In this document: one piece after another, positions 19,544 through 57,095 of the stretch
How positions within the stretch are numbered: the stretch's first letter is position 1
How the letters are laid out: every line of letters starts with the position of its first letter
Assembly: GCA_028289445.1 (NCBI GenBank)
Contig: JANQPO010000019.1
Location: forward strand, 186,001-250,000
DNA from: Tepidamorphaceae bacterium
GTDB lineage: Bacteria; Pseudomonadota; Alphaproteobacteria; Rhizobiales; JAKSCL01
Direction: 5' to 3'
DNA length: 64,000 nucleotides
Notes under the pieces: generated by a model
Seen by the model: the letters and a program-made list of their open reading frames with translations, nothing else
Database searches by the model: none
Told to the model about the DNA's origin: nothing
Position numbers and translations under genes: made by a program

Positions 19544-20403
19544 TGCTCTTCTCCCCGCATCATCAGCGTGTAGAAGACCCAGCAGAAGAGAAGGGTCATC
19601 AAGAAGTAGATGATCGACATGGCCGCGGCGATGCCGAGGTTGAACTCGCCGAGCGCCGCCTTGACGAGGTCGATCGACAACAAGGTCGTTGCGTTGCCGG
19701 GCCCACCGCCGGTCAGCACAAAGGGCTCGGTATAGATCATGAAGGAGTCCATGAAGCGCAGGAGGACGGCGATGGTCAAAACGCGCTTCATCTTCGGCAG
19801 CTGGATATGGCGGAACACGGCCCAGCGGGAGGCGGAATCAATCTTGGCGGCCTGGTAATAAGCGTCGGGGATCGACGACAAGCCGGCATAGGCCAGAAGC
19901 ACGACCAGCGACGTCCAATGCCAGACATCCATCAAGATGACCGTGAACCAGGCCGACACCGGTTGCTGGGTGAAGTTGTAATCGATACCCAGCGCGTTCA
20001 GCCCGTAACCCAAAAGCCCGATATCCGGCAGCGCAAAAATGTTCCACATGGCGCCGACGACGTTCCACGGGATCAGCAGAGGTAGCGCCATCAACACCAG
20101 GCAGACCGAGACCCACGCACCGCGTCGCGGCATGGCCAGCGCGATGGCAACGCCCAGCGGGATTTCGATGAGAAGAATTGTGAAGGTGAAGGCGAACTGA
20201 CGGACGAGCGCCGCGTGGAAGCGCTCCGACGCCAGCAGCGCCTCGTACCATTTGACGCCCTCGAAGAAGAAGATGTTGTTGCCGAACGTATCCTGGACGG
20301 AATAGTTGACGACCGTCATGAGCGGGATGATGGCGTTGAAGGCGACCAGCGCCATCACGGGCAACACCATCAGCCAGGCACGATTGTTCCAGGTCTTGCC
20401 CAT
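19540..20403 (-). CDS. glpP: Glycerol ABC transporter permease
   Basis: A 287-residue MalF-like permease. The start MGKTWNNRAW is taken because its ATG shares an A with the glpT stop codon (TGATG), giving translational coupling; a longer reading would run nine codons into glpT. Six helices are predicted, and the EAA loop appears as DAYYQAAKIDSASRWAVFRH near residue 185. It overlaps glpQ downstream. Confidence 0.9.
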   Translation of the reverse strand: MGKTWNNRAWLMVLPVMALVAFNAIIPLMTVVNYSVQDTFGNNIFFFEGVKWYEALLASERFHAALVRQFAFTFTILLIEIPLGVAIALAMPRRGAWVSVCLVLMALPLLIPWNVVGAMWNIFALPDIGLLGYGLNALGIDYNFTQQPVSAWFTVILMDVWHWTSLVVLLAYAGLSSIPDAYYQAAKIDSASRWAVFRHIQLPKMKRVLTIAVLLRFMDSFMIYTEPFVLTGGGPGNATTLLSIDLVKAALGEFNLGIAAAMSIIYFLMTLLFCWVFYTLMMRGEEQ

Positions 20404-21473
20404 CAGCGATCTTCCAGTTCGACGCGCCAAGACTCGGCGTAAACATTGATACCGGCCGGATCGAACGTGACATGCGGTTCGGCCGGGATCTCGGCGGACT
20501 CCGGCAGAACAGCGGCCAAGTCGTGCCCTTCGAGCGAAAGGTGAACGATCTTCTGCCGGCCGATATCCTCCACCTTGGTGATCTTGGTCGGCATGCCCGT
20601 CTCGCCGATGCGGACGAACTCCGGGCGGATTCCCAGCTCTGCGGTTCGAACGGTCGAGGCCGCCGCGCCGGGAAGCACGATGGTCTGCTTACCCAGCTGC
20701 GCGTTGAGGCCCTCGACCTCGATCGGCATCACGTTCATGCCCGGCGAGCCGATGAAGTAACCGACAAAGGTGTGGCGCGGCCGTTCGAACAAGTCCGCCG
20801 GCGTGCCGATCTGAACGATCTCGCCCTCATACATGACGACGACGGTATCGGCGAAGGTCAGCGCCTCGGTCTGGTCGTGGGTGACGTAGACCATGGTGTA
20901 GCCGAAGCGCCGGTGCAGTTGCTTCAACTGCGAGCGCAGCACCCATTTCATATGCGGATCGATGACCGTCAGGGGTTCGTCGAACAGGATCGCGTTGACG
21001 TCTGAGCGCACCAAACCGCGGCCGAGCGAGATTTTCTGCTTCTGGTCGGCCGTGAGGCCCCGTGCCTTGCGATCGGACCAATCGGCAAGATCGATCATCT
21101 CCAGCGTCTCGCGTACTTTGCGGTCGACGCGCTCCTCGGCGACGCCGCGATTGCGGAGCGGGAAGGCCAGATTGTCGTAGACCGTCATCGTGTCGTAGAT
21201 CACCGGGAACTGGAAAACCTGCGCGATGTTGCGGTCGCGAGTCTCCAGATCGGTCACATCCTTGCCGTCGAACAGGATGCGCCCTTCGCTCGGATGCAGA
21301 AGGCCCGAAATGATGTTCAAGAGGGTTGTCTTGCCGCAGCCAGACGGTCCCAAAAGGGCATAGGCGCCGCCGTCTTCCCAGTGGTGGTGAACCTCTTTGA
21401 GCGCATAGTCGACATCCGACATCGGCCTGCGCAGGTAAGAATGCCGAATATGTTCGAGATCGATTCGCGCCAT
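20403..21473 (-). CDS. glpT: Glycerol ABC transporter ATPase with degenerate signature
   Basis: A 356-residue ATPase. Walker A is GPSGCGKT at residues 42-49, Walker B ILFDEP at 162-167, and the switch histidine is H199 in YVTHDQTEAL. The ABC signature, normally LSGGQ, reads LTADQ at 140-144. A TOBE-like domain follows with GIRPEFVRI. It pairs with GlpS, which shows the opposite pattern (signature intact, histidine lost), so the two should form a heterodimer with one consensus ATP site. The gene begins four bases after the glpS stop. Confidence 0.9.
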   Translation of the reverse strand: MARIDLEHIRHSYLRRPMSDVDYALKEVHHHWEDGGAYALLGPSGCGKTTLLNIISGLLHPSEGRILFDGKDVTDLETRDRNIAQVFQFPVIYDTMTVYDNLAFPLRNRGVAEERVDRKVRETLEMIDLADWSDRKARGLTADQKQKISLGRGLVRSDVNAILFDEPLTVIDPHMKWVLRSQLKQLHRRFGYTMVYVTHDQTEALTFADTVVVMYEGEIVQIGTPADLFERPRHTFVGYFIGSPGMNVMPIEVEGLNAQLGKQTIVLPGAAASTVRTAELGIRPEFVRIGETGMPTKITKVEDIGRQKIVHLSLEGHDLAAVLPESAEIPAEPHVTFDPAGINVYAESWRVELEDR

Positions 21474-21477
21474 GGTC

Positions 21478-22560
21478 TCAGGCCGCCATTTTCCGGTCGG
21501 CGGTCATCGACCGTCCGGTGTCATCGAAAACAAGCAGGGCGCCTGGATCGAGGAAAACCTCGACCGCCTCACCGCCCGGCAGATCGTGAATGCCGTGGGT
21601 CAGGAGCACCCAGCGCTCGCCGGCATAGTCGAGGTGAATGAAGCTCTCAGAGCCAGTGATTTCGGTCACCGACACCTTCGCGTTCATGGCAACGGCGTCG
21701 GTGCCGGGGCGCGTCAGTGTCAAATGGTGCGGCTGGAAGCCGATAGTGTAGCGGCCGTCAGGAATGTCAGAGATTGCGGCCGCCACGGGGATGTCGACGG
21801 CGCCATCGAGCGAAAACCGGTCGCCGGCCTTGGTCACGCTCGCCGTGTTGAGCGGCGGGTCGGAGAAGGTTCTGGCGGTGATGAGATCGACTGGGTTGCG
21901 GAAGACATCGATCGTCGGACCGAATTGCGTCACGCGTCCTTCCGACAAGGTGGCCGTGTTGCCGCCAAGCAGCAGCGCCTCGGAGGGCTCGGTCGTCGCA
22001 TAGACGAAGACCGTGCCGGATTCGGCGAAAATCTTCGGCAGTTCGGCGCGCAACTCCTCGCGTAGCTTGTAGTCGAGATTTGCAAGCGGCTCGTCGAGAA
22101 GCAACAAGCCGGCATCCTTGACGATCGCTCGGGCCAGTGCTGTCCGCTGCTGTTGGCCGCCCGACAGCATGAGCGGCGTGCGGTCGAGATAGGGCGTGAG
22201 CTTCAAAAGCTCCGCCGCGCGCTTGACGGTGGTATCGATCTCCGCCAGCGGGGCACCGGCCACGCGCATCGGCGAGGCGATGTTCTCGTAGACCGTCATC
22301 GACGGGTAATTGATAAACTGCTGATAGACCATCGCGATATCGCGCTTTTGAACCGGCATTCCGGTCACATCGACACCGTCGAACCAGACGGTGCCGGCGG
22401 TCGGGCGCTCCAGTCCCGCCATGAGGCGCATAAGGGTCGTCTTGCCCGACAGCGTCGGTCCAAGCAGAACGTTCAGCGACCCGGCTTCAAACGTCAAAGA
22501 GACATCGGCGATGTGGGTTTCTCCACCGACTGTCTTGCTGACGGATTTGAGTTCAAGCAT
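21478..22560 (-). CDS. glpS: Glycerol ABC transporter ATPase lacking the switch histidine
   Basis: A 360-residue ATPase. Walker A is GPTLSGKT at residues 34-41, the signature LSGGQ is intact at 132-136, and Walker B LLLLDEP lies at 152-158. The H-loop reads YATTEPSEAL, with Thr190 where His is expected and Glu-Pro replacing Asp-Gln. The C-terminal TOBE region contains TIGFQPHHLTL. It is the first transporter gene, 18 bases after glpD. Loss of the histidine suggests that its own Walker site hydrolyses ATP poorly. Confidence 0.9.
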   Translation of the reverse strand: MLELKSVSKTVGGETHIADVSLTFEAGSLNVLLGPTLSGKTTLMRLMAGLERPTAGTVWFDGVDVTGMPVQKRDIAMVYQQFINYPSMTVYENIASPMRVAGAPLAEIDTTVKRAAELLKLTPYLDRTPLMLSGGQQQRTALARAIVKDAGLLLLDEPLANLDYKLREELRAELPKIFAESGTVFVYATTEPSEALLLGGNTATLSEGRVTQFGPTIDVFRNPVDLITARTFSDPPLNTASVTKAGDRFSLDGAVDIPVAAAISDIPDGRYTIGFQPHHLTLTRPGTDAVAMNAKVSVTEITGSESFIHLDYAGERWVLLTHGIHDLPGGEAVEVFLDPGALLVFDDTGRSMTADRKMAA

Positions 22561-24108: not shown

Positions 24109-24156
24109 TGCCTCCCCCTTGGCGAATTTCGCAATGCACAATTTTTGCTGCTAATG

Positions 24157-24204
24157 CGAAAGATAATTAATTCGATACGAAATCAAATCGCATGTCAAAC
24201 GAAA
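24157..24204. promoter_or_regulatory. GlpR operator half-site array at the glpD promoter
   Basis: CGAAA occurs at 24157, 24178 and 24200, spaced 21 and 22 bases, so all lie on one face of the helix. The middle copy is part of the perfect inverted repeat TTCG-ATA-CGAA (24171-24181), which resembles the TCG/CGA dyad of known GlpR operators and overlaps the predicted -10 box. Confidence 0.6.
24170..24198 (-). promoter_or_regulatory. Predicted glpD promoter
   Basis: On the minus strand a perfect TTGACA (24198-24193) is separated by 17 bases from TCGAAT (24175-24170), which matches TATAAT at four of six positions. It directs transcription towards glpD and the transporter genes. Confidence 0.6.
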
Positions 24205-24241
24205 TTTTCCGAACTTCAGCGCGCGCGCCTGGCGATACAGA

Positions 24242-25012
24242 TCAAGCCGCTGTTTCGGTTTCGATCAAACGAACGTCCGACTCCAGGCACATGCGCCGGA
24301 CGGCGGTAACTGGGCAGCGGTCCGTGATAAACGTGTTGACTTGCGACACATGACCTATCCGCACGGGCGCGGTGCGCTCGAATTTCGACGAATCGGATAC
24401 CAGGATGACGTGACGGGCGTTCTCGATGATCGCCTGTGCGACCTTCACCTCGCGATAATCGAAATCGAGAAGCGCGCCGTCCTGATCGATCGCGGACGTT
24501 CCGATGACGGCGAAGTCCACCTTGAACTGCTTGATGAAATCAACCGCCGCCTCGCCGACCACGCCGCCATCATAGGAGCGAACGACACCGCCCGTGATCA
24601 CCACTTCGGTGTCGGGGTTCAAGCGCATCCGATTGGCAACATTGATATTATTCGTGATGACCATCAATCCGGAGTGCCCTTCGAGCGCACCGCTGACCGC
24701 CTCCGTGGTCGTGCCGATATTGATGAAGAGCGACGCGTTGTCGGTGATCAGGGCAGCGGCGGCCCGGCCGATGGCTTCCTTTTCAGCGGATGCCAGCCGG
24801 CGCCGCGCTTCGTATTCCACATTGGCGCGCCCGGTCGGGAAAAGCGCGCCGCCATGGACCCGATTGAGATGACGCGCTTCGCACAGCGCGTTGAGGTCCT
24901 TGCGGATCGTCTGCGGCGAAACGGCGAACCGTTCGGCCAGCGAGTCGACCAGAACGCGGCCCTCGGTCTTTGCGATTTCCATGATCGCGGCATGGCGCGG
25001 CAGTAGGTGCAT
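24242..25012 (-). CDS. glpR: DeoR-family repressor of glycerol genes
   Basis: A 256-residue DeoR-family regulator. The N-terminal winged helix reads RHAAIMEIAKTEGRVLVDSL and continues with SPQTIRKDLNALCEA and LNRVHGGA, the diagnostic DeoR signature. The C-terminal sensor domain has FINIGTTTEAV as its phosphosugar loop, with glycerol 3-phosphate the known effector of GlpR. It lies upstream of glpD on the same strand, and CGAAA motifs occur before both genes, suggesting repression of the operon and of itself. Confidence 0.9.
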   Translation of the reverse strand: MHLLPRHAAIMEIAKTEGRVLVDSLAERFAVSPQTIRKDLNALCEARHLNRVHGGALFPTGRANVEYEARRRLASAEKEAIGRAAAALITDNASLFINIGTTTEAVSGALEGHSGLMVITNNINVANRMRLNPDTEVVITGGVVRSYDGGVVGEAAVDFIKQFKVDFAVIGTSAIDQDGALLDFDYREVKVAQAIIENARHVILVSDSSKFERTAPVRIGHVSQVNTFITDRCPVTAVRRMCLESDVRLIETETAA

Positions 25013-45879: not shown

Positions 45880-45961
45880 TCAGTCCTCCCGTCCAGGCCC
45901 GCTCATTGACCGGCGACCCTTCGGCAAACTCTACCGGTGCAGCACGATAATTGGAAGTCAC

Positions 45962-46032
45962 GAAGCGCATTGCGGCTTCCCTCTTTGCCGCCAAATATCC
46001 TATAAATAACAGCAAGAAAGCCGCGATCGCGG
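45962..46032. promoter_or_regulatory. Candidate operators and promoter in the divergent epimerase region
   Basis: GAAGC (45962-45966) and GCTTC (45975-45979) form an inverted repeat, TATAAA at 46001 is a possible -10 box for the plus-strand genes, and CCGCGATCGCGG (46021-46032) is a perfect 12-base palindrome 24 bases before the ATG. No regulator gene is adjacent, so the binding protein is unknown. Confidence 0.35.
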
Positions 46033-46055
46033 TCAATCAACGGGGAGAGGACGCC

Positions 46056-46904
46056 ATGAAGATCGGATTTTGCATGTTGCTCTGGACGACGGGCGTCACG
46101 GAGGCGCACCGGCCGATCCTCGAAGACCTCAAAGCGACCGGATACGATGGTGTCGAGATCCCGATTTTTGACGGTTCGCCGGACGACTTTTCGGCGCTCG
46201 GTAAGATGCTCGACGAGATCGGTCTCGGGCGCACCGGGATCAGTGTCATCCCGACGGAAGACAAGAACCCCCTGTCCGAAGACGCCGGTGCACGACAGGC
46301 AGCGGTGGACTACCTGAACTATTGCATCGACTGCACGGCAGCGCTCGGCGCGTCGGCCATCGGCGGGCCGCTGCATCAGACCCTTGGTCATTTCTCAGGC
46401 ACCGGACCGACGGATGAGGAACGGGCGCGTGCCCGCGATGTCCATCGCGCCGTCGGGGAGCATGCACAGGCAAACAGCGTGACCATCGCGCTTGAGGCGG
46501 TCAACCGGTTCGAGACCTATTTCGTCACGACGATGGACCAACTCTCCGCCTATGTCGCCTCTGTCGACCATCCAAACATCCAGGCGATGTACGATACCTT
46601 CCACGCCAATATCGAGGAGACCGATCCGGTCGCCGCCTTCACGCGCAACGCCGGCTGTGTCCGCCATGTCCATATTTCCGAGAACGACCGCGGCGTGCCC
46701 GGGCGCGGCCATGTGCCCTGGGCGGAGACCTTCAAGGCGATCAAGGCGTCCGGGTATGACGGCTGGCTGACGATTGAATCCTTCGGGCGCGGTCTGCCAG
46801 AGCTGGCGGCGGCGACGCGCGTCTGGCGCGACTTCGCCGAGTCCCCCGAGGCCGTCTACAAAGACGGCTACACACACATTCGCAATGGCTGGGATGCGGC
46901 GTGA
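46056..46904 (+). CDS. Ketose 3-epimerase-like protein (D-tagatose 3-epimerase family)
   Basis: A 282-residue TIM-barrel enzyme. The metal and substrate residues of the D-tagatose/D-psicose 3-epimerase family are recognisable: Glu in IALEAVNRFETYFVTTM near residue 148, Asp in MYDTFHANIEE near residue 183, His in CVRHVHISENDRGVPGRGHV near residue 209, and Glu in WLTIESFG near residue 243. The start follows GGGGAGAGG. It heads a three-gene operon with a DhaK-type kinase and a triose-phosphate-isomerase-like gene, overlapping the kinase start (TGATG). It probably epimerises a ketose or ketose phosphate at C3; chain length is unknown. Confidence 0.82.
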   Translation: MKIGFCMLLWTTGVTEAHRPILEDLKATGYDGVEIPIFDGSPDDFSALGKMLDEIGLGRTGISVIPTEDKNPLSEDAGARQAAVDYLNYCIDCTAALGASAIGGPLHQTLGHFSGTGPTDEERARARDVHRAVGEHAQANSVTIALEAVNRFETYFVTTMDQLSAYVASVDHPNIQAMYDTFHANIEETDPVAAFTRNAGCVRHVHISENDRGVPGRGHVPWAETFKAIKASGYDGWLTIESFGRGLPELAAATRVWRDFAESPEAVYKDGYTHIRNGWDAA

Positions 46905-47899
46905 TGGCGAAGAAAGTCCTCAACAATCCGGACCATGTGATCGAGGAAATGCTGGAGGGCATTCTGGCGGCCCATCCGGAGCATCTGCGCCAGCCTGAAG
47001 GCGCGCCACGCACGATCGTCGCGACCGACGGGCCGCGCGACGGCAAGGTCGGGCTGGTCATCGGCGGTGGCTCGGGTCACGAGCCGACATTTCTCGGCTT
47101 CGTCGGCCGAGGCCTGGCCGATGTCGCTGTGATTGGCGACGTCTTCACGTCGCCGACGCCGGACGCAATCCTCGATTCCGCCCGGGCAGCCAATGGCAGG
47201 GCCGGCGTGCTCTTCATGTACGGCAACTATGCCGGCGACGTTATGAATTTCGACATGGCGGCGGAGATGGCGGCGATGGACGACATCGAAGTCCGCACCG
47301 TGTTGTCGACCGACGATGTGGCGATCAAGGAGAAGGAGAAGCGGCGGGGCGTTGCCGGCAATTTCTTCATCTTCAAGTCAGCGGGCGCCGCCTGCGACAA
47401 AATGCTGTCGTTCGATGAGTGCGAGCGTATCGCCCGCAAGTCCAACGACCACACGTTCACGATGGGCGTCGCGCTGGCGCCCTGTTCGCTGCCGCAAACC
47501 CTGAAACCGAGCTTCACTCTCGGCGACAACGAAATGGAGATCGGGCTCGGCATCCATGGCGAGGCGGGGGTTTATCGCGGGCCGCTTCAAACGGCAGACG
47601 AGATCACCGACCGGATCGTCGACGCGATCTTCGCGCAGATGAGCCCCTCAAAGGGCGATCGCGTGGCTGTCCTCGTCAATTCGCTCGGCGCGACGCCGCT
47701 GATGGAGCTTTACATCGTCAACCGGCGTCTCAGGCAGCGGCTCGACGATGCTGGGATCACGGTGCACAAGACCTGGGTCGGAAACTACTGCACATCGCTT
47801 GAAATGGCGGGCCTGTCGGTGACGCTCCATCACCTCGATGGCGAGTTGACCGAAATGCTCGATCACCCTTGCGACTGCGCCATGTTCCGCGCCGGATAG
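46904..47899 (+). CDS. dhaK: DhaK-type dihydroxyacetone/short-ketose kinase subunit
   Basis: A 331-residue protein covering only the DhaK (Dak1) domain, which binds the keto-sugar covalently through a His. Motifs are GLVIGGGSGHEPTFLGFVG near residue 47, FMYGNYAGDVMNFDMA near residue 105, and the substrate His in LGIHGEAGVYRGP near residue 215. In characterised kinases the ATP-binding DhaL domain is fused or encoded next to DhaK; neither is seen here. The next gene is a TPI-like isomerase, and the previous one a ketose 3-epimerase. The substrate could be dihydroxyacetone or a tetrulose such as erythrulose; the former name is used only for the family. Confidence 0.85.
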   Translation: MAKKVLNNPDHVIEEMLEGILAAHPEHLRQPEGAPRTIVATDGPRDGKVGLVIGGGSGHEPTFLGFVGRGLADVAVIGDVFTSPTPDAILDSARAANGRAGVLFMYGNYAGDVMNFDMAAEMAAMDDIEVRTVLSTDDVAIKEKEKRRGVAGNFFIFKSAGAACDKMLSFDECERIARKSNDHTFTMGVALAPCSLPQTLKPSFTLGDNEMEIGLGIHGEAGVYRGPLQTADEITDRIVDAIFAQMSPSKGDRVAVLVNSLGATPLMELYIVNRRLRQRLDDAGITVHKTWVGNYCTSLEMAGLSVTLHHLDGELTEMLDHPCDCAMFRAG

Positions 47900-47908
47900 G
47901 ATCTACAC

Positions 47909-48652
47909 ATGTTTTGGATCGGGACGTCTTGGAAGATGAACAAGACGCAGGCGGATGCGCGGGCGTTCTTCGATGCGCTTTCGAGATTCGATCTGCCGGC
48001 GGCGCCCGAGGCGCAGCTTTTCGTCATACCGCCGTTCACGGCCATTGAGACGGCAATGCGCGCGGCGGCGAATATGCCAATCCTGATCGGCGCGCAAAAT
48101 GTCGGCCCGGCGGAGGAGGGGGCTTTCACCGGAGAAGTGTCGGCCGCGATGCTCGCCGAGATCGGGTGCGATCTGGTTGAGATCGGTCATTCGGAGCGGC
48201 GGCAATACTTCGGCGAGACCGATGAGACTGTGAACGCCAAGGTCCGTCTGGTTCTCGGCCAGGGCATGCGGCCGCTTGTATGCGTCGGCGAAACGGCGGA
48301 GCAACGGGCAAGCGGCGCGGCGCAAGATATCGTTCTCGGTCAGACACGGATTGCCTTTCGCGATGTCGCGGAGACCCAACTCGCGCAGTGCCTGATTGCC
48401 TATGAGCCGGTTTGGGCGATCGGCGATGGCGGCACGCCGGCGCAGCCTGACGACGCGGCCGAGGTCCACGCGTTATTGAAGGCCGAATTTCCGGCGTGCC
48501 CGGTTCTCTATGGCGGCAGCGTGACGGCGGATAACTGCGCGGGCTTCGCGCAGCGGCCGGAGATCGATGGCCTCTTCATCGGCCGCGCCGCCTGGGCGGC
48601 AGAGGGCTTTCAGACGATTATCGCACGATCGCTGGCCGCGCTTACCGCCTAG
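47909..48652 (+). CDS. Triose-phosphate isomerase family protein
   Basis: A 247-residue TIM-family isomerase. All catalytic residues are present: Lys in GTSWKMNKTQ at residue 11, His in EIGHSERRQYFG near residue 92, and Glu in IAYEPVWAIGDGG near residue 165; the phosphate-binding YGGSVTADN follows. As it lies after a DhaK-type kinase in a sugar operon, it may be a second TPI or an isomerase of tetrulose phosphates, as EryH and LerI are in erythritol and threitol pathways. Its stop overlaps the convergent cupin stop by four bases. Sequence alone cannot decide between triose and tetrose. Confidence 0.87.
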   Translation: MFWIGTSWKMNKTQADARAFFDALSRFDLPAAPEAQLFVIPPFTAIETAMRAAANMPILIGAQNVGPAEEGAFTGEVSAAMLAEIGCDLVEIGHSERRQYFGETDETVNAKVRLVLGQGMRPLVCVGETAEQRASGAAQDIVLGQTRIAFRDVAETQLAQCLIAYEPVWAIGDGGTPAQPDDAAEVHALLKAEFPACPVLYGGSVTADNCAGFAQRPEIDGLFIGRAAWAAEGFQTIIARSLAALTA

Positions 48653-49050
48653 CTGCGGAGCGTATTCCAGGGCGCCTCGCCGGCGACGTCGACCAGTTCA
48701 TAACCGCCCTCGCCGACACAGGGACCCAGGATCGCGACGATCTTGGCATCGGTATCGCCTGCGTTGAAGGAGGCGTGCACCATATCCGCCGGCAGGTAGG
48801 CGGAGTCGCCTGGGCCCAGGATCCGCATCTCCTGGTCGACCCATTGTTCGACCGTGCCGGCGACCACATAGAGCACCTCTTCCTGGTCCGGATGCTTGTG
48901 GAAGTCGTGGCCCTTGCCGGGCGCAAGCGTCACGTCGATGACCGTGAGTTGCGTCGCGCCGGTCGATGGCGGATGGCTCAGCCAGCGCAGGCGACCCCAG
49001 TCCAAGACCTCTTGCGGTGTTTCGGCGGCGGTGACGAATTTTCCTGGCAT
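48649..49050 (-). CDS. Cupin-domain protein
   Basis: A 133-residue single cupin. The metal-binding motifs are HDFHKHPDQEEVLYVVAGTV near residue 50 (two His and Glu) and LPADMVHASFNAGDTDAK near residue 88 (third His). It is the last gene of the transporter operon, 10 bases after the Tm-1-like gene. Single cupins of this type can be sugar isomerases, mutarotase-like enzymes or dioxygenases. An enzymatic role in the pathway is plausible, but no reaction can be named. Confidence 0.8.
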   Translation of the reverse strand: MPGKFVTAAETPQEVLDWGRLRWLSHPPSTGATQLTVIDVTLAPGKGHDFHKHPDQEEVLYVVAGTVEQWVDQEMRILGPGDSAYLPADMVHASFNAGDTDAKIVAILGPCVGEGGYELVDVAGEAPWNTLRS

Positions 49051-49060
49051 TCAATCCTCC

Positions 49061-50263
49061 CTATCGCGGCGTAATGTCGTTGAACTGGGCGACGACCGCA
49101 TCGGCGAATTCCGGGTCGTTGATGGCGTGTGGCAGGCGAATCAGGCGGCGTGTATCGGTCACTTCGACAGTATCCGCCAGCGCCTCGAAAAGCGCCGCAT
49201 CGGCGTTCGGGTCGTGGAACGGCTGGCCGGGGATATCGATCGCCGAAACGCCGCCCTGCGGAATCAGGAACCGGACGGGCCCACTCATCCGGTTCAGTTT
49301 TTCGCCGATCCAGCGGCCGATCTCCCTGTTCTCCTCCGACGTCGTGCGCATCAGCGTCACTTGCGCATTGTGGACGTAGAGATTTCGGTCGCGGAAGCGT
49401 TCCGGCACCGTATCCATGGCACCGAAATTGACCATGTCGAGCGCGCCGCAGGACCCGACATAGGGAACGCCGCTTTCGATGATCGCGTCCAGCCGACCCG
49501 GCCCGGCGGAGAGTGTACCACCGACCAGATGGTCGGCGATCTCCGTCGTGGTCGTATCGATGACGGCGTTGATCATGCCCGACTCGACCAGCTTTTCCAT
49601 CGACCGGCCGCCGGTGCCGGTGGCGTGAAACACGAGGCAATCATAGCGGTCGGCGAGGGCCACCTGAACGGCTTGCACCAGCGGTGTGGTGACGCCGAAC
49701 ATGGTGAGGCCGATCGCCGGTTTGTCATCGACTTCTGGGATCGCGCCGGCGCTGACGATCATGCCCGCCAGCGCATGGGCCGCATTGGCAAGCACCCGCC
49801 TGGAGATGCGATTGAGACCCTGGACGTCGGTGATCGAATACATCATCGCGATATCGGCCGGACCGACATAGGCGCTGACATTGCCCGACGCGACGGTCGA
49901 GACCAGCACTTTTGGCGTACCGGCCGGCAGCGCCCGCATCGCTGGAGCCACAAGAGCCGTTCCGCCTGAGCCGCCGGCGCCGATCATACCGTCGATGTCC
50001 TGGCGCGATCGCGTCATCGCCTCAAAGGCGATAGCCATGGCGGTTACCGCCGCGCCGCGATCGCCGGCCTTCAAGACGGCATCGGCGCCATCTGGATGAT
50101 GCGCAGCGACCTTGTCCGGTTCAATGTCAGCGGGGGACGCGTGCCCACCGGTGCCCAGATCGACAGTGGTGACGTCGACGCCAGCCGCCTGGATCAAATC
50201 CGCGATATAGCCGAGTTCCGCCGCCTTGGTGTCGAAGGTTCCAGCGACATAGGCGGTCGGCAT
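49061..50263 (-). CDS. Tm-1-like ATP-binding protein (UPF0261)
   Basis: A 400-residue protein of the UPF0261 family, whose N-terminal domain matches the ATP-binding domain of the tomato Tm-1 resistance protein. Conserved blocks are [20 protein letters not shown] at the start, [20 protein letters not shown] near residue 95, and [19 protein letters not shown] near residue 215, all Gly-rich phosphate-type loops. The start follows GGAG and lies four bases after the PfkB stop. Its biochemical role is unknown in bacteria. Being fixed between a sugar kinase and a cupin in this operon points to a catabolic step. Confidence 0.85.
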
Positions 50264-50267
50264 CGTG

Positions 50268-51212
50268 TCAGCTCCGCCAGCTCCGCATCGCGTCGAGCGT
50301 CTGGTCGAGTGAGATAATGCCGGCGTCCGAGCCAAGGCCGGAGGCGACGAGCGATGCCGACGCGGTTGCCAGATGGCCGCATTCCTCAAGATCGTAGCCG
50401 AGCGACACACCGGTCACGAAGCCCGCTGAATAGGCGTCGCCGCAACCCGTCGTGTCGACGACAGTGATATCGTAGGGCTTGATCTGAATGCGGGTATCGC
50501 CCGTCGCGATCAGCGAGCCTTCCTCGCCCATCGTCAAGGCGCAGCAGCCCACGCCATGATCGAGGAAGAAGCGGGCGTTGTCCTCCGTATCGTGGAGGCC
50601 CGACAAGTCACGCGCCTCTTCAATCGACGGCATGAAATAGTCGATATGGGGCATGAGCGGCTTGACGATGTTGATCGTGTCGGGATTGGTGGCGATCAGA
50701 TCGAACGAGGTCGTGCAGCCGGCCTCCTTTGCCGCCGCCAGAAGCTTGCGGCTCGGCTCGCCGTCGAGCTTTTGCAACAGGCCGGTGCCGCCGAGGTGGA
50801 CAAAACGGGCATCCAGAACTTGCGGCAGGGTCGCGTTGTCGATGTCGAAGTGGTCGGATGCGCCGCGCACATGGAGCGCTGGGCGATCGCCGTTCGGGCG
50901 TACGTTGAGGATCGTCGCCGAAGTCGGCACGCCGGACAAACGCTGCATGGCTGCGCAGTCGATGCCGTGCTTCTCCATCTCCATGATGACGAAGTCGGCC
51001 TTCTCGTCCTGACCAACGGCGCCGACGGCGAGGCATTTCTGGCCGAGCTTGGCGAAGTCTATGACGGTGCCGCCGGCCGTACCGGCGACGGTCAAGCGGA
51101 TCTCCTCGATGAACTCGACGTTGCCGCGCTCTGGGATACGCTCCACCGGGCGGCCCAGAATATCGAGGATATAAAGCCCAACGACGCTGACGTCATAGGT
51201 CCGCTCGGTCAT
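50268..51212 (-). CDS. PfkB-family carbohydrate kinase
   Basis: A 314-residue ribokinase-fold kinase. The N-terminal signature is [20 protein letters not shown] near residue 42, and the C-terminal PfkB signature is [20 protein letters not shown] near residue 250, with the catalytic Asp in GCGD (usually GAGD). The start overlaps the small membrane protein gene by four bases. It is probably the kinase that phosphorylates the imported sugar or a metabolite of it. The acceptor is unknown; members include ribokinase, fructokinase, KDG kinase and others. Confidence 0.88.
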
Positions 51213-51496
51213 CTGAGCGTTCCCAAATAGTACACATAAAGATTGGCGGTCCCGATGCCCAACAACGCCGCGATCCCAAGGATGATAAGGACAATGATCA
51301 CCACGCGGATCAGCGCTGAGGCCGGCACGCCGGGCCGGCAAACCGGAATGAGGTTGAAGGCAAGGCCGCCGACGACGACGGCGACGCAGCCGATCGAGAA
51401 CAGCGTGAGCGAAAATGGCTGGAAGATCATCGCGACCGCAGCGAGACACAGCCCGATGACGAACCACTCGACGACTTTGGCCTGTGTGGCGGTCAT
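51209..51496 (-). CDS. Small integral membrane protein of the second ABC importer
   Basis: A 95-residue protein with two to three strongly hydrophobic helices: about residues 10-28 (EWFVIGLCLAAVAMIFQPF), 30-48, and 63-88 (VVIIVLIILGIAALLGIG). It overlaps both the ATPase gene upstream and the PfkB gene downstream by four bases each, so it is tightly co-translated with the transporter. Its position recalls GlpU in the glycerol importer, although I see no clear sequence similarity between them. A role as permease accessory is inferred. Confidence 0.72.
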   Translation of the reverse strand: MTATQAKVVEWFVIGLCLAAVAMIFQPFSLTLFSIGCVAVVVGGLAFNLIPVCRPGVPASALIRVVIIVLIILGIAALLGIGTANLYVYYLGTLR

Positions 51497-52587
51497 GATG
51501 CCCTCACCGCAGTTCCGTCCTGCCCGAAGATGTGCGTGGCGCCGGGCTGGAACCGGACATGCACCGTGTCGCCCTCTTCGACCGGGGTCTGCCAATCGGT
51601 GACAACACGAATGTCGTGCTTACCGTCGTTCATGTGCGCCAGCGTTTCAGCACCCATCGGTTCGACGATATCGATGACGGAGGACAGACCGTCCTCGACC
51701 TGTTCGCGAACGATATCGATGTTGCGCGGCCGGATGCCGAGCGTAACCGGATCGCCCTGATTGAGATCGGCGGCGGCGGGATCGACGGTGATCGAGAGCG
51801 TCTGTCCACCCTCGACGGCGAACCGCGCATTGGTTGCGTCAGACATCTCGGTGAAGGTTGCCGGAACGAGGTTCATCTGCGGCGTGCCGATGAAGCCGGC
51901 GACGAAAAGATTGGCGGGCTTTTGAAAGATCGTATGGGGCGTATCGACCTGTTCGATCCGGCCATCGCGCATGACGGCGATCCGGTCGGCCATTGTCAGC
52001 GCTTCCAGCTGATCATGGGTGACGATGACCGTTGGCCGGCTGAGACCCTGCAACACCGATTTGATCTCTCCGCGCATGACCTCGCGCAGCTGAACATCGA
52101 GACGCGAGAGCGGCTCGTCGAACAGGAAGCAATTCGGATCGCGGATGATCGACCGGCCGACCGCCACGCGCTGCTTTTCCCCTTCAGCCAACTGGCCGGG
52201 CAGACGGTCGAGAATCCCCTCCAATTGCAGGACGGCGGCAGTTTCGGCGACTTTTGCGTCGATCTCGGCCTTCGACATCGATTCCGCGTGCAGCGGATAG
52301 GCGAGGTTCTCGGCAACGGTCAGGCTTGGATAAAGCGCATAAAACTGGAAGCTCATCGCCACATTGCGGTCGCGCGGTGCAATGTCGTTGACCCGGTTGC
52401 CGGCCAGTATGACGTCGCCGTCATTGGCCCATTCGAGGCCGGCGACCATTCTAAGCGTCGTCGTCTTGCCGCAGCCGGACGGCCCCAGCAGACACAACAC
52501 TTCGCCCTCGCCGACAGTCAGGTCGATGGCATCGACCGCCGTCAGATCGCCGAACCGCTTGGTCAGTTTTTTCAGCTCGATCGTCAT
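51493..52587 (-). CDS. ABC transporter ATPase with degenerate signature (second importer)
   Basis: A 364-residue MalK-type ATPase. Walker A is GPSGCGKT at residues 35-42, Walker B FLFDEP at 154-159, and the switch histidine is H191 in VTHDQLEAL. The signature, normally LSGGQ, reads LAEGE at 133-137. A TOBE-type domain with LGIRPRNIDIV follows. The partner ATPase at the head of the operon has LSGGE but lacks the histidine. This is the same complementary pattern as GlpT/GlpS and points to an asymmetric heterodimer. It overlaps the permease gene upstream by four bases. Confidence 0.88.
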   Translation of the reverse strand: MTIELKKLTKRFGDLTAVDAIDLTVGEGEVLCLLGPSGCGKTTTLRMVAGLEWANDGDVILAGNRVNDIAPRDRNVAMSFQFYALYPSLTVAENLAYPLHAESMSKAEIDAKVAETAAVLQLEGILDRLPGQLAEGEKQRVAVGRSIIRDPNCFLFDEPLSRLDVQLREVMRGEIKSVLQGLSRPTVIVTHDQLEALTMADRIAVMRDGRIEQVDTPHTIFQKPANLFVAGFIGTPQMNLVPATFTEMSDATNARFAVEGGQTLSITVDPAAADLNQGDPVTLGIRPRNIDIVREQVEDGLSSVIDIVEPMGAETLAHMNDGKHDIRVVTDWQTPVEEGDTVHVRFQPGATHIFGQDGTAVRAS

Positions 52588-53453
52588 TTCTTGACCGTGC
52601 CGAACGTGACGCCGCGCAGAAGCTGGTTCTGCAAGAGGAAGGTGACGAAGAAGATCGGGATCAGGAACAACGTGACAATCGCGGCAAGCAGGCCGTAGTC
52701 AACGCCGACCTCGCCGCCCAGCGTGCGTGCCATGGCAACCGGAACGGTGCGCGTGTCGACGCCGGTCAAAAGCAGCGCGAAGAGGAACTCGTTCCAGGTC
52801 AGGATCAAGCCGAACACGAAAGTCGCCGCCAGGCCGGCCAGAATTTGCGGAATGCACATGCCGAAGAACACCTGGCGCTCCTTCGCGCCGTCCATGCGCG
52901 CGGCGTCCTCGATCTCCGGATTGAGTTCGTCGAAGAAGCTCTTCACCAACCAGACCGAGAAGGGAATGTTGAAGGCGGTGTAGAGCAGGATGATGCCCCA
53001 ATAGGTGCCGGCGAGGCCAGAGATGCGGAACATCAGGAAGATCGGGATGATGACGACGATCGGCGGCATCATCCGCGTGGTGAGGATGATGAACAGATAG
53101 GTGTCGTTGCCCTTCAGCGGATAGCGCGAGAAGGCGTAAGCCGCCAGCGTGCCGACGATCAGCGCCAGCATCACCGATGTCCCGGCGATGAAGATGGAGT
53201 TGAAGAAGTAGAGCGGAAACGCCGTTTCCTGGCTGGCGCCCGCGGTGATCGAGGCGCGGTAGAAGACGGAGATGAAATTATCAAACGTCGGCGTGAAGAA
53301 AATCTTCGGCGGAATCGCCAGCGCATCCGTCCGGGTCTTGAATGCCGTGAGGATGATCCACAGAACCGGGAAGAAGTAGATAAAGCTGATGACAGCGGCA
53401 ATCGCCGTCCAGCCCCAGCCGGCCTTGCCGATTTCGCGCCGTTTCACCGCCAT
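52584..53453 (-). CDS. ABC importer permease (MalG-like, second importer)
   Basis: A 289-residue permease with six predicted helices, the first being GWTAIAAVISFIYFFPVLWI. The EAA loop reads DELNPEIEDAARMDGAKERQ near residue 185, and the C-terminus ends NQLLRGVTFGTVKK, typical of MalG-type subunits. It abuts the other permease gene (sharing one base) and overlaps the ATPase gene by four bases. It belongs to the carbohydrate uptake (CUT1) family; substrate unknown. Confidence 0.9.
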   Translation of the reverse strand: MAVKRREIGKAGWGWTAIAAVISFIYFFPVLWIILTAFKTRTDALAIPPKIFFTPTFDNFISVFYRASITAGASQETAFPLYFFNSIFIAGTSVMLALIVGTLAAYAFSRYPLKGNDTYLFIILTTRMMPPIVVIIPIFLMFRISGLAGTYWGIILLYTAFNIPFSVWLVKSFFDELNPEIEDAARMDGAKERQVFFGMCIPQILAGLAATFVFGLILTWNEFLFALLLTGVDTRTVPVAMARTLGGEVGVDYGLLAAIVTLFLIPIFFVTFLLQNQLLRGVTFGTVKK

Positions 53454-54370
53454 CAGCTCACCTCCTGGGCGCGCCGGTTGACGGCGTAGAGATAAAGATT
53501 GGTCAGGACGATCACGACGAAGAGCACGATATAGGCGAGTGCCGACGACTGACTGGTTCTAAAGAACTGGAAGGCGAGACGGTAGAGATAGACGGCGATC
53601 GTCTCCGTTGCCGATCCAGGACCGCCCTCGGTGATGATGTAGACCAGGTCGAACAGTTTGAACGTCTCGATCGTTCGAAACAGGATCGCCAACAAGAGCA
53701 AACTCTTGATGTAGGGAAAGGTGATCGTCCAGAAGCGCCGCCAGGCCGAGGCGCGGTCGATCTCGGCCGCCTCATAGAGATATTTTGGCACCGACACCAA
53801 GCCGGCCAAGACCAAAAGCATCACGAACGGCGACCACATCCACGCATCCGCGATGACGATCCCGGCGATCGCGCCGGCCGGCGTCGCCAGCAGAACGAAG
53901 GGCTCGGACGTGAAGTTGTTGATCACATAGCTGACGAGCCCAAACGTCGGCTCATAGTAGAGCTTGAAGAACACGCCGACGGAGACGAAGGACAGCATCA
54001 TCGGCGCCAGCACCAGCATCAACAAAATGCGGCGCATGGGAAAGGCCTTGGCGAACAACAACGCCAGAAGGAAGCCGACGATCAGTTGCAAGAGCACCGA
54101 CGAGCCGACGATGATCGCGGTGGTCTGGAAGCGTTCCCAGACCTTGTCGTCGGTCAACACGCGTTCGTAGTAGAAGAGGCCCCTAAATTCCGGGATCTTC
54201 ACGCGGTTGGCGCGGTAGTTGAAAAAGGACAGACCGAACGACCACAAGAGCGGGAAGATGTTCATGATGAACAGGATGGCGATTGCCGGCGTGACCAAAA
54301 GCGCGCCGCGACGCTTTGGGTCCATCAGCCATCCGAAAAATCCACTGTGCTCGGCCGATGATGGCGCCAT
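53453..54370 (-). CDS. ABC importer permease (MalF-like, second importer)
   Basis: A 305-residue permease. Six helices are predicted from LLVTPAIAILFIMNIFPLLW onwards, and the EAA loop is KYLYEAAEIDRASAWRRFWT near residue 200. It follows the binding-protein gene after 80 bases that contain a strong hairpin, and shares its final base with the next permease gene. Together the pair forms the transport channel. Confidence 0.9.
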   Translation of the reverse strand: MAPSSAEHSGFFGWLMDPKRRGALLVTPAIAILFIMNIFPLLWSFGLSFFNYRANRVKIPEFRGLFYYERVLTDDKVWERFQTTAIIVGSSVLLQLIVGFLLALLFAKAFPMRRILLMLVLAPMMLSFVSVGVFFKLYYEPTFGLVSYVINNFTSEPFVLLATPAGAIAGIVIADAWMWSPFVMLLVLAGLVSVPKYLYEAAEIDRASAWRRFWTITFPYIKSLLLLAILFRTIETFKLFDLVYIITEGGPGSATETIAVYLYRLAFQFFRTSQSSALAYIVLFVVIVLTNLYLYAVNRRAQEVS

Positions 54371-54414
54371 AGTCGTGGTCGTCTCGCTCGTTTTGAACAG
54401 TCGCTAAAGGTAGG

Positions 54415-54442
54415 GGAAGGGCCCGGCGAACCAGGCCCTTCC
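54415..54442. other. Intercistronic hairpin after the binding-protein gene
   Basis: GGAAGGGCC and its exact complement GGCCCTTCC form a nine-base stem with a ten-base loop, between the binding-protein stop and the first permease. No T-run follows on the minus strand. It probably stabilises the binding-protein message. Confidence 0.65.
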
Positions 54443-54450
54443 GATTTGCG

Positions 54451-55923
54451 TTACTCGATGTGACCGGCTTCTTCCAACAGGTCCTGTTGGAACTCAGCCA
54501 CGGCGTCGAGCGCTTCCTTGGCGGAAATCTGGCCGGTGATCGCCTTGTCGAACTCTTCTTGTTGCTGGGTCAGCAGTTCGAAGAACTCGGGGATGTGCCA
54601 GACGTCGCGCTGCCAGTCGATCATCTCGACATGGGCCCGGTTCCACGGCCGCAGATCGTTGTAGGTCGGATCGGCCATGACACTCATGAGGCCCGACTGG
54701 CCGCCGTTCTTGACGGCTTCGATCTGGGTCTCGGGATTGAGCCACCACTTCACGACGTTGAGCGCCTCTTTGACGACTTCATCGCTGTTCCAGGTGGTCA
54801 GCACGAACGGTTGGCCACCGATATTGCCGGTGCGGTCGATCGAGCCGTCATCCTTGCGGGTGCCGGGCGCCGGACCGAAGGCCGACTTGTCGTGCACGGT
54901 CGAAGCGGTCGGATCGAGGACCGGCTCGCCGAGACCGACCCAATCGATGATCGCGCCGACCTTGCCCTGCATGTAAAGGTCCTGGATGACGAAAATGTCC
55001 ATCTGACCGGTCTGGGCCACCGGCGGCATGTACTGCAGATAGGACAGATATTCCTCGAACGCCTCAACGGCGATGTCGGAGTTCACCACGCCCTGGGCCT
55101 GGCCTTCCGGTGCGGTTGTTTCATCCCAGATCCCGCCGCCACGCTGCCAAATGAAGGCGTTGATGGCCATGGTCGAGAAGTCGTAGCCCTTACCGGCCTG
55201 ATAGGCGATTCCGTAGAAATCGTCTTCGGCCACGCCGTCTCCAAGGCTGTCGCCCTTGGCGCGCTTGAAGAACTCGCCGATCTGGCCCCACTTCTGCCAG
55301 TCGACATCCTGCCAGTCCTCATAGGTGCACGGCAGTTTGGAGCCATACTTATCCATGAACGCCGCTGCCTCGCCTTCGTGGCAGAAGAGGTCTTCCCGGT
55401 AGAAGGTCACATAGGTGTCCGGGAACTGCGGGAAGCCGTAGTAGCGAGCGTCGGGATGCGGAAAGCCGCCGGCTTCTTCGAGCTGCGCCCGCGTCTTGTG
55501 CGGATATGTCGAATAGGCCGAGACCAGCGCCGGATGCAGGTCCTTCATGATCGCCGTCAGTTCCGGGTCGGCGTTAATCAGATCGGTTAGATCCATATAG
55601 TATCCGCCCTCGACAAACGCACCGAGCCATTGCGAGTCGGTGACGATCATCTGGTATTTCTGTTCGCCCGATGTCAGCGACGCGGCGACACGCTCGTAGA
55701 AGCTCGGCCACGGAATGAAGTCCATGTCGAGTGTCGTGTTGTGGCCGTCCGGCGACTTATAGGTCTTGTCGAAGTGCTCCTTCATGAAGCGGGTCGGCGG
55801 CCAGTCCGGCGCCGCCATGGTGATGGTAACGTCCGACGCTACCGCCGGTGCCGGGCCGAAGCTGGCCATCACCGCCAAAGCCGATGCACCGAGCACGGCC
55901 TTCATCGTCATACTGTAACGCAT
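54451..55923 (-). CDS. ABC importer substrate-binding protein (second importer)
   Basis: A 490-residue family 1 extracellular solute-binding protein. The start MRYSMTMKAVLGASALAVMA gives a Sec signal peptide with cleavage after AVAS near residue 30; longer readings would bury it. Mature features include ITMAAPDWPPTRFMKEHFDK and VGLGEPVLDPTASTVHDKSA. It is somewhat long for sugar binders, as GlpV is, but is not close to GlpV. It lies between the first ATPase and the permeases. The ligand is unknown; nearby genes suggest a polyol or short ketose. Confidence 0.87.
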   Translation of the reverse strand: MRYSMTMKAVLGASALAVMASFGPAPAVASDVTITMAAPDWPPTRFMKEHFDKTYKSPDGHNTTLDMDFIPWPSFYERVAASLTSGEQKYQMIVTDSQWLGAFVEGGYYMDLTDLINADPELTAIMKDLHPALVSAYSTYPHKTRAQLEEAGGFPHPDARYYGFPQFPDTYVTFYREDLFCHEGEAAAFMDKYGSKLPCTYEDWQDVDWQKWGQIGEFFKRAKGDSLGDGVAEDDFYGIAYQAGKGYDFSTMAINAFIWQRGGGIWDETTAPEGQAQGVVNSDIAVEAFEEYLSYLQYMPPVAQTGQMDIFVIQDLYMQGKVGAIIDWVGLGEPVLDPTASTVHDKSAFGPAPGTRKDDGSIDRTGNIGGQPFVLTTWNSDEVVKEALNVVKWWLNPETQIEAVKNGGQSGLMSVMADPTYNDLRPWNRAHVEMIDWQRDVWHIPEFFELLTQQQEEFDKAITGQISAKEALDAVAEFQQDLLEEAGHIE

Positions 55924-56009
55924 TGCTTTTCCTCCCTTGTGTCGTCCCTTGTCTGAAACGCTTGAGGCCGCTTTTCGAAGCAGCCTGGATTCGGCGCCCA
56001 AAGGCGCCA

Positions 56010-57095
56010 TCAATTCACCCGAACTCCTGTCTCCGCCATGAACACATGCCCATCAGTGACACCGAGAGACACGTCGATCTCGTCCCCGGCATTGAGCTGC
56101 GCCGCCGCTTCCTCCGGCAGGACCATCTTCATTGTTTCGTCGCGCACGGCGATGTCGATCACCGTAACGTCGCCAAGAGGTTCGGTCAGCCGAATCTTGG
56201 CGCGCAAATTGACGCGTCCACTCTCCGAACGGCCGAGATGAATGTCGTGGGGCCGGATGCCATAGGTGATGCTATCGCCGTGGGTCAGCCCGGTCATCGT
56301 GATCGGGATTTGGCCGAACGGCAGCTCGACCACCGGTTCCCCATCGGTCTCCTTGACCTCCCCACTGATCAGATTCATCGCCGGTGCGCCCACCATTTGC
56401 GCCACATAGGTCGAGCCGGGCGCGCCGTAGAGATCGCGCGGCGCACCGGTCTCCACGACCTGACCGTCGCGGATCACGGCGATCCAGCGGCCCATCGTGA
56501 GCGCTTCAAGCTGATCCGGCGTGGCGTAGAGCATGGTCATGCCGAGTTCGCGGTGCAGACGTTTGAACTCGGCACGCATCTCGTGGCGAAGCTTGGCGTC
56601 GAGATTGGTCAGCGGCTCGTCGAGCAAGAGCAATTTCGGCCGTCGGATGATTGCCCGGCCGATCGCGACGCGCTGCTGTTCGCCGCCGGACAATGTCGGC
56701 GGTTTGCGGTCCAACGTGTGCGTGACGCGCAAAAGTTCGGCAATCTCGCCGACCCGCGTGTTGATCTCGGCCTTTTCCATCCCATCGCGTTCCAGCGGGT
56801 AGGCGAGGTTCTTGCGAACGGTGAAGTGCGGATAAAGCGCGAAGGTCTGAAAGATCATCGCCATATCGCGGCCCTGGACCGACGTGTCGGTGATGTTCTC
56901 GTCGCCGAACCAGACCTCGCCGCCGGCCAGCGTTTCCAAGCCGGCGATTGCTCTCAGCGTTGTCGTCTTTCCTGAAGAACTCGGGCCGAGCAGGCAGAAA
57001 AACTCGCCGCCGGCGACATCGAACGTCATGCCCCTGAGCGCTTCGACCTTTCCAAACGTCCGCCTGACATCGACAAGCCTAAGATTGGCCACCAA
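56010..57095 (-). CDS. ABC transporter ATPase lacking the switch histidine (second importer)
   Basis: A 361-residue MalK-type ATPase and first gene of the operon. Walker A is GPSSSGKT at residues 37-44, the signature LSGGE is intact at 135-139, and Walker B LLLLDEP lies at 155-161. The H-loop reads YATPDQLEAL, with Pro193 in place of the expected His. A TOBE domain follows with GIRPHDIHLG. Its partner, at the far side of the permease genes, has the histidine but a degenerate signature. The pattern equals that of GlpS. It is separated from the binding-protein gene by 86 bases. Confidence 0.88.
   Translation of the reverse strand: MVANLRLVDVRRTFGKVEALRGMTFDVAGGEFFCLLGPSSSGKTTTLRAIAGLETLAGGEVWFGDENITDTSVQGRDMAMIFQTFALYPHFTVRKNLAYPLERDGMEKAEINTRVGEIAELLRVTHTLDRKPPTLSGGEQQRVAIGRAIIRRPKLLLLDEPLTNLDAKLRHEMRAEFKRLHRELGMTMLYATPDQLEALTMGRWIAVIRDGQVVETGAPRDLYGAPGSTYVAQMVGAPAMNLISGEVKETDGEPVVELPFGQIPITMTGLTHGDSITYGIRPHDIHLGRSESGRVNLRAKIRLTEPLGDVTVIDIAVRDETMKMVLPEEAAAQLNAGDEIDVSLGVTDGHVFMAETGVRVN

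Follow-up and report, generated by a model that had tools for sequence, protein, structure and literature searches.

Why should an importer of a type that usually makes do with one kind of ATPase encode two, each altered where the other is intact? The question is raised by an operon on the minus strand of a 64,000-nucleotide stretch of DNA from a Tepidamorphaceae bacterium (assembly GCA_028289445.1, contig JANQPO010000019.1, positions 186,001 to 250,000). The whole of this stretch is called the window here, and coordinates count from its first letter. In the order of transcription, the operon encodes an ATP-binding cassette (ABC) ATPase, called A (56010..57095), a substrate-binding protein (54451..56013), two permeases, TM1 (53453..54370) and TM2 (52584..53453), and a second ABC ATPase, called B (51493..52587), after which come a PfkB-family sugar kinase and a UPF0261 protein. 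I propose that the first five genes quite likely encode a CUT1-type importer of a sugar or polyol, driven by a heterodimer of A and B in which one composite ATP site (site 2) would hydrolyze ATP and the other (site 1) is degenerate.

By its parts, the system belongs with the MalK-type importers of CUT1. Both ATPases match the Pfam models ABC_tran, PF17912 (OB_MalK) and PF08402 (TOBE_2), the substrate-binding protein matches SBP_bac_1, and both permeases match BPD_transp_1. MalK itself, in MalFGK2, is a homodimer with two identical and complete sites. Two different ATPase genes break with this habit, but a homodimeric ATPase is usual rather than defining, so the membership of the A/B importer in CUT1 stands.

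The residues in question are these. ATPase A (P0002, 361 amino acids, TTG start) is a MalK-type nucleotide-binding domain with an OB/TOBE region. Its signature, LSGGE (residues 135 to 139; 56679..56693), is intact, its D-loop, TNLD (56598..56609), keeps the asparagine, and its H-loop has lost the switch histidine: Pro193 (56517..56519) pairs with position 192, a histidine, in MalK of E. coli (alignment to PDB 1q12). The fourth position of its Walker A motif, GPSSSGKT (56964..56987), is not glycine. ATPase B (P0001, 364 amino acids), of the same domains, is the reverse. It keeps its switch histidine, His191 (52015..52017), and has a degenerate signature, LAEGE (residues 133 to 137; 52177..52191), and a D-loop, SRLD (52096..52107), with arginine in place of asparagine. 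A preliminary description of this DNA had reported the signature and switch residue of each protein, and translation of the minus-strand reading frames, with the MalK alignment in the case of A, bears it out. It overlooked the D-loop of B and the Walker A position of A, two departures that belong to the same ATP site as the others. The plus-strand frame at these coordinates gives no ATPase reading; both genes lie on the minus strand.

Which site is that? In an ABC dimer, the D-loop of the subunit that gives the signature faces the same composite site as the signature does. As for the rest of such a site, PMC7756269 describes how one subunit contributes the two Walker motifs, the Q-loop and the H-loop, while its partner contributes the signature. 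It follows that the departures of both proteins fall on site 1, where the Walker A position and Pro193 of A meet the signature and D-loop of B, the last placed by the general arrangement of D-loops. Site 2 is complete. The earlier prediction that a heterodimer would have one full site and one lacking both the histidine and a proper signature agrees with this map. Site 1 is not stripped bare: it keeps the Walker A lysine, the Q-loop glutamine and the catalytic glutamate of A. With that lysine and glutamate in place, ATP binding and perhaps slow cleavage would still be possible there.

Are these departures an accident of one genome? Relatives were gathered by similarity to the substrate-binding protein, so that the ATPases played no part in their selection. 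At an E value of 1e-60 or better, 9 of 385 genomes in the class and 2 of 398 in the phylum had a relative of this protein (the bacterium's own genome being counted in both). An alignment of nine binding proteins led to 80 loci, the best of 145 relatives, in species genomes that have named records. Most are labeled Alphaproteobacteria, a few Gammaproteobacteria, one Rokuibacteriota and one Solirubrobacterales, and many are metagenome bins whose labels may err. Together with the window, they gave 75 A and 77 B proteins, which were aligned and read column by column.

Every A has proline at the switch position, SGG in the signature and asparagine in the D-loop, and every A also has the Walker A lysine and threonine, the Q-loop glutamine and the Walker B Asp-Glu (75/75 in each case). 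Every B has the switch histidine, glutamate at the third position of the signature and arginine for asparagine in the D-loop, with Walker A (including its glycine), Walker B and Q-loop residues canonical throughout (77/77 in each case). Two positions vary. The fourth residue of Walker A in A is serine in 40, alanine in 29 and glycine in 6, and the second residue of the signature in B is alanine in 44, serine in 23 and glycine in 10. A partial A from locus L051, outside the 75, has the proline as well. Loci L039-L046 were kept out of the counts because at least seven of them apparently overlap with named loci; with the window, their eight A and seven B proteins give the same residues. The preliminary description held that homologues losing these residues at random would tell against it. 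Aligned with homologues from similar operons, the paired changes proved invariant, and no such random loss was seen in any of the orthologues examined.

The two genes also stay together. The order A, substrate-binding protein, TM1, TM2, B was found, by match position, in 71 of the 80 loci. A is missing from five loci and B from four, and each of these nine contigs stops within 366 bases (where A is missing) or 192 bases (where B is missing) of the place where the gene is expected. Purifying selection seems to act on both genes, the rough median ratio of nonsynonymous to synonymous substitution (dN/dS) being 0.14 for A and 0.15 for B in pairs more than 78% identical from 14 chosen loci (20 pairs for A, 32 for B), with synonymous sites near saturation. 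AlphaFold2 models of the single chains have a mean predicted local distance difference test score (pLDDT) of 90.7 for A and 91.3 for B, and the ten best matches of each in the PDB are MalK-type subunits (template-modeling scores 0.83-0.92). In both models alike, a strand leads into the switch position (Pro193 in A, His191 in B) and a helix follows the signature. One can be confident in predicting that both proteins fold as MalK-type subunits.

Perhaps ATPases of this kind are simply loose in their motifs. The control ATPases, chosen as good matches to B, say otherwise. The top 30 matches in the bacterium's own genome, minus eight members of four two-ATPase operons, left 22, the last few of which are from more distant importer types. 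All 22 have the Walker A glycine and lysine, the Q-loop glutamine, SGG, the Walker B Asp-Glu and the switch histidine; their D-loop position is asparagine in 15, alanine in 6 and glycine in 1. A further 26 loci from nine relatives (part of the matches listed) agree with them, with asparagine in 22 D-loops and alanine in 4. All told, the Walker A glycine, SGG and the histidine are kept in 48 of 48 controls, and arginine occurs in the D-loop of none. Since the changes are invariant among orthologues and absent from every control, the pairing of A and B is not random. Nor do two ATPase genes by themselves bring defects. Loci L127 and L128 are two-ATPase CUT1 operons on plasmids of Sinorhizobium meliloti and Agrobacterium vitis, the two examined out of 163 plasmid records that match the substrate-binding protein (plasmid relatives of that protein are less than 60% identical to it, and about 27% among the matches listed). 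All four of their ATPases are canonical in signature, Walker motifs and switch histidine.

Those two plasmid operons can be turned to a different account, since they show that two ATPase genes occur without asymmetry. Suppose that A and B form a heterodimer for the sake of docking, each fitting the coupling loop of one permease, that the changes are tolerated, and that both sites hydrolyze ATP. The catalytic glutamate, Walker A lysine and Q-loop glutamine, intact in all 75 A and all 77 B proteins, suit this idea. Tolerated changes ought to vary, however, and the proline of A and the glutamate and arginine of B do not, although relatives have drifted to 43-64% identity with the window protein in the case of A and 51-75% in the case of B (20 relatives aligned for each). 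Furthermore, the invariant changes concentrate on one site. I consider the docking explanation unlikely.

It is far less probable that A and B work in different transporters, or each as a homodimer of its own. The genome does hold many related importer ATPases, and there are MalK-type ATPases that work for several importers, the "multitask ATPases" of PMC7658222. A homodimer of A, though, would lack both switch histidines, and a homodimer of B would have two degenerate signatures, and the two genes flank a single block of substrate-binding protein and permeases in the 71 loci mentioned, the other nine running into the end of a contig. That A might be a pseudo-ATPase, regulatory or in decay, with B working beside some other partner, could be read from its divergence, which is faster than that of B or the permeases (identity in most loci being about 50%, as against 60% and 70%), but this is scarcely credible of a protein that keeps its SGG core and Walker B in every one of 75 cases, is missing only where a contig end cuts the locus short, and has the pLDDT and dN/dS given above.

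How, then, might the A-B heterodimer run with one switch histidine? A MalK dimer of E. coli in which one subunit carries a mutant His192 is reportedly badly impaired. If so, the A/B family must have adapted to a single switch histidine. The motor would be the heterodimer of these two MalK-type ATPases, with ATP bound at both sites. Site 2, where the Walker motifs and His191 of B face the LSGGE and D-loop of A, has all it needs and would carry out the main hydrolysis. Site 1, where the Walker motifs and Pro193 of A face the xEGE and SRLD of B, would probably bind ATP and hydrolyze it slowly or never, serving as a holding site that keeps the dimer together between strokes. One ATP would be hydrolyzed in each transport cycle. 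A role of this sort for a degenerate site, as holder of the dimer between strokes, is discussed for exporters in PMC7756269. Judged by its residues, the importer is probably powered by one ATP site in full working order. The preliminary description had spoken of an obligate asymmetric machine; an asymmetric heterodimer is strongly supported by the conserved residues and the linkage of the genes, while its obligate character and the loss of hydrolysis at site 1 are predictions.

The same asymmetry is not unique to A and B, as another part of the window makes plain. A glp-type operon there encodes a GlpS-type ATPase (21478..22560, minus strand) and a GlpT-type ATPase (20403..21473, minus strand), two permeases, glycerol-3-phosphate dehydrogenase (GlpD, 22579-24141) and a DeoR/GlpR-type regulator (24242-25012, whose best model match falls short of the curated cut-off). 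It resembles the glp operon of R. leguminosarum as described in PMC7912956. A search by full-length similarity to GlpS, at an E value of 1e-110 or better, found matches in 29 of 289 genomes of the class (own genome included), GlpT adjoining in each; such a search could favor GlpS-like residues, not those of GlpT. Two of the GlpS matches, L153 and L156, carry an internal stop flag, and their open part was used. In the 29 GlpS proteins, the switch histidine is replaced by threonine (23) or serine (6), the A-loop position is valine in all, the fourth Walker A position is leucine in 23, glycine in 5 and serine in 1, and SGG is kept in all. In all 29 GlpT proteins, the signature has alanine or proline and then aspartate, the D-loop has valine, and the histidine is kept. 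All 29 pairs have the polarity of A and B, though not their residues, and this glycerol-type importer too appears to depend on one fully working ATP site. GlpS relatives were also found on 120 Rhizobium plasmid records among 243. The earlier remark that such an arrangement is unusual for CUT1 is therefore true only in a relative sense, given the GlpS/GlpT pairs, one of them in the same window.

The glycerol importer of R. leguminosarum, GlpSTPQ(U)V, is accordingly the nearest comparison: CUT1-like, with two MalK-type ATPases, one having an intact signature and a lost histidine and the other the reverse. It differs from the A/B importer in its residues (threonine or serine with xAD or xPD, as against proline with xEGE) and in its gene order (S-T-P-Q, as against A, substrate-binding protein, two permeases, B). 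Among ten proteins scanned at 45951-57095, around the A/B operon, none matched a GlpD or GlpR model; both matches are at the other operon (22579-25012). Near the end of one contig of the own genome (C19:49359-51007; L173, L189) are GlpP/GlpQ-like permeases, possibly from a second glp-type importer. In the two-ATPase pair L013/L022 of the same genome (C6:15149-17283), both Q-loop glutamines are glutamate and both D-loops have histidine, signature and switch histidine being kept.

Did the two asymmetric pairs arise once or twice? In a motif-masked tree of 69 ATPases (12 chosen from each of A, B, GlpS and GlpT, plus 21 others), the four types form four supported clades. A branch with support 98/92 sets GlpS apart from A, and B, GlpT, A and most of the others hang from one unresolved fork. 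In a permease tree, TM1 stands apart from GlpP at 89/91. Approximately unbiased tests reject none of the joint clades (A with GlpS, p = 0.133; A and GlpS with L021 and L022, p = 0.363; B with GlpT, p = 0.432; A with B, p = 0.163). The best tree leans towards two separate origins. A broader idea, which I offer as possible though on balance doubtful, is that loss of one ATP site has recurred among MalK-type importers, giving a class of at least two origins, A/B and GlpS/GlpT, with different substitutions, the same polarity and one hydrolysis per cycle.

Among known systems, exporters such as TM287/288, TAP and CFTR resemble A/B in pairing a complete composite site with a degenerate one, and in several of them, as reported in PMC7756269, changes in the H-loop of one half accompany changes in the signature of the other. 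MalFGK2 and the single-ATPase CUT1 systems share with A/B the MalK fold with OB/TOBE, two permeases and an SBP_bac_1 protein, and differ in having one homodimeric ATPase in place of two that depart from the consensus in complementary ways. Among importers, a degenerate ATP site is noted for CUT2, in the ATPases RbsA and NupO of Bacillus (PMC11466899). These, however, have two nucleotide-binding domains fused in one chain, belong to type II importers in the scheme of that paper, have lost the Walker A lysine of the second half, and are not of MalK type. The siderophore importer IrtAB of Mycobacterium tuberculosis is a heterodimer with asymmetric nucleotide binding, but it has the type IV exporter fold and is contrasted with degenerate-site transporters in the same account (PMC10246721). 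In DppABCDF, DppD and DppF have been compared with consensus and degenerate sites (PMC12136057). Degenerate sites are thus already known in exporters and, as an observation, in fused CUT2 ATPases. For CUT1 importers, a search of the literature, which lay mostly outside subscription papers, showed no description of one among the papers listed; the original paper on the glycerol importer (Ding et al. 2012, Microbiology) may mention it.

Several observations weigh against reading the A/B importer as a motor with one working site. The Walker A change in A is not strict, six of the 75 proteins having glycine. Site 1 retains lysine and threonine, the glutamine and the catalytic glutamate, and so may retain some hydrolysis. 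The departures of both subunits do fall on one composite site, as in degenerate-site heterodimers, but the Walker B glutamate, which degenerate sites of exporters often lose (PMC7756269), though not universally, is kept in all 75 A proteins. A third two-ATPase pair in the own genome, L018/L021 (C19:4494-6694), has changes on both sites: one ATPase has Asp-Asp for Asp-Glu, glutamine for the histidine, and SNGQ, and its partner has glutamate in the D-loop and glutamate for the Q-loop glutamine. That pattern is alike in three of three pairs found among 190 genomes, own included; L211 and L212 show it. Finally, the structure models are of single chains, and contact between A and B is a prediction.

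What might the A/B importer carry? The PfkB-family kinase gene (50268..51467, its match starting at residue 93 of the longest open reading frame) lies downstream of B in the same direction, next to the gene for the UPF0261, or Tm-1-like, protein of unknown function (49061..50410, minus strand). Converging on these from the plus strand (45951..48652) are genes for an AP_endonuc_2-type epimerase/isomerase, a DhaK subunit and triose-phosphate isomerase. Matches to neighbors of these types (PfkB, UPF0261, epimerase or DhaK) occur in 50 of the 80 loci, and to UPF0261 in 26. No pathway for the UPF0261 gene was seen among the papers listed in the literature search. The kinase, epimerase and triose genes are a weak hint that the substrate is a small sugar or polyol. 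One of the 71 loci with the full gene order, L120, has an additional, canonical MalK-type ATPase (L120:4771-6174) on the upstream side of the operon.

The number of ATPs that a type I importer spends per cycle, and its need for both sites, have been debated mostly on the strength of mutants engineered in homodimers. With a weak site strictly conserved in a natural family of importers, and a glycerol family in which a Rhizobium member has been studied genetically, both questions could be tested directly in native systems. At present, the annotation of such subunits as "UgpC/MalK" hides their functional asymmetry. If the recurrent class is real, then two working sites, as in MalFGK2, would not be something that the fold requires.

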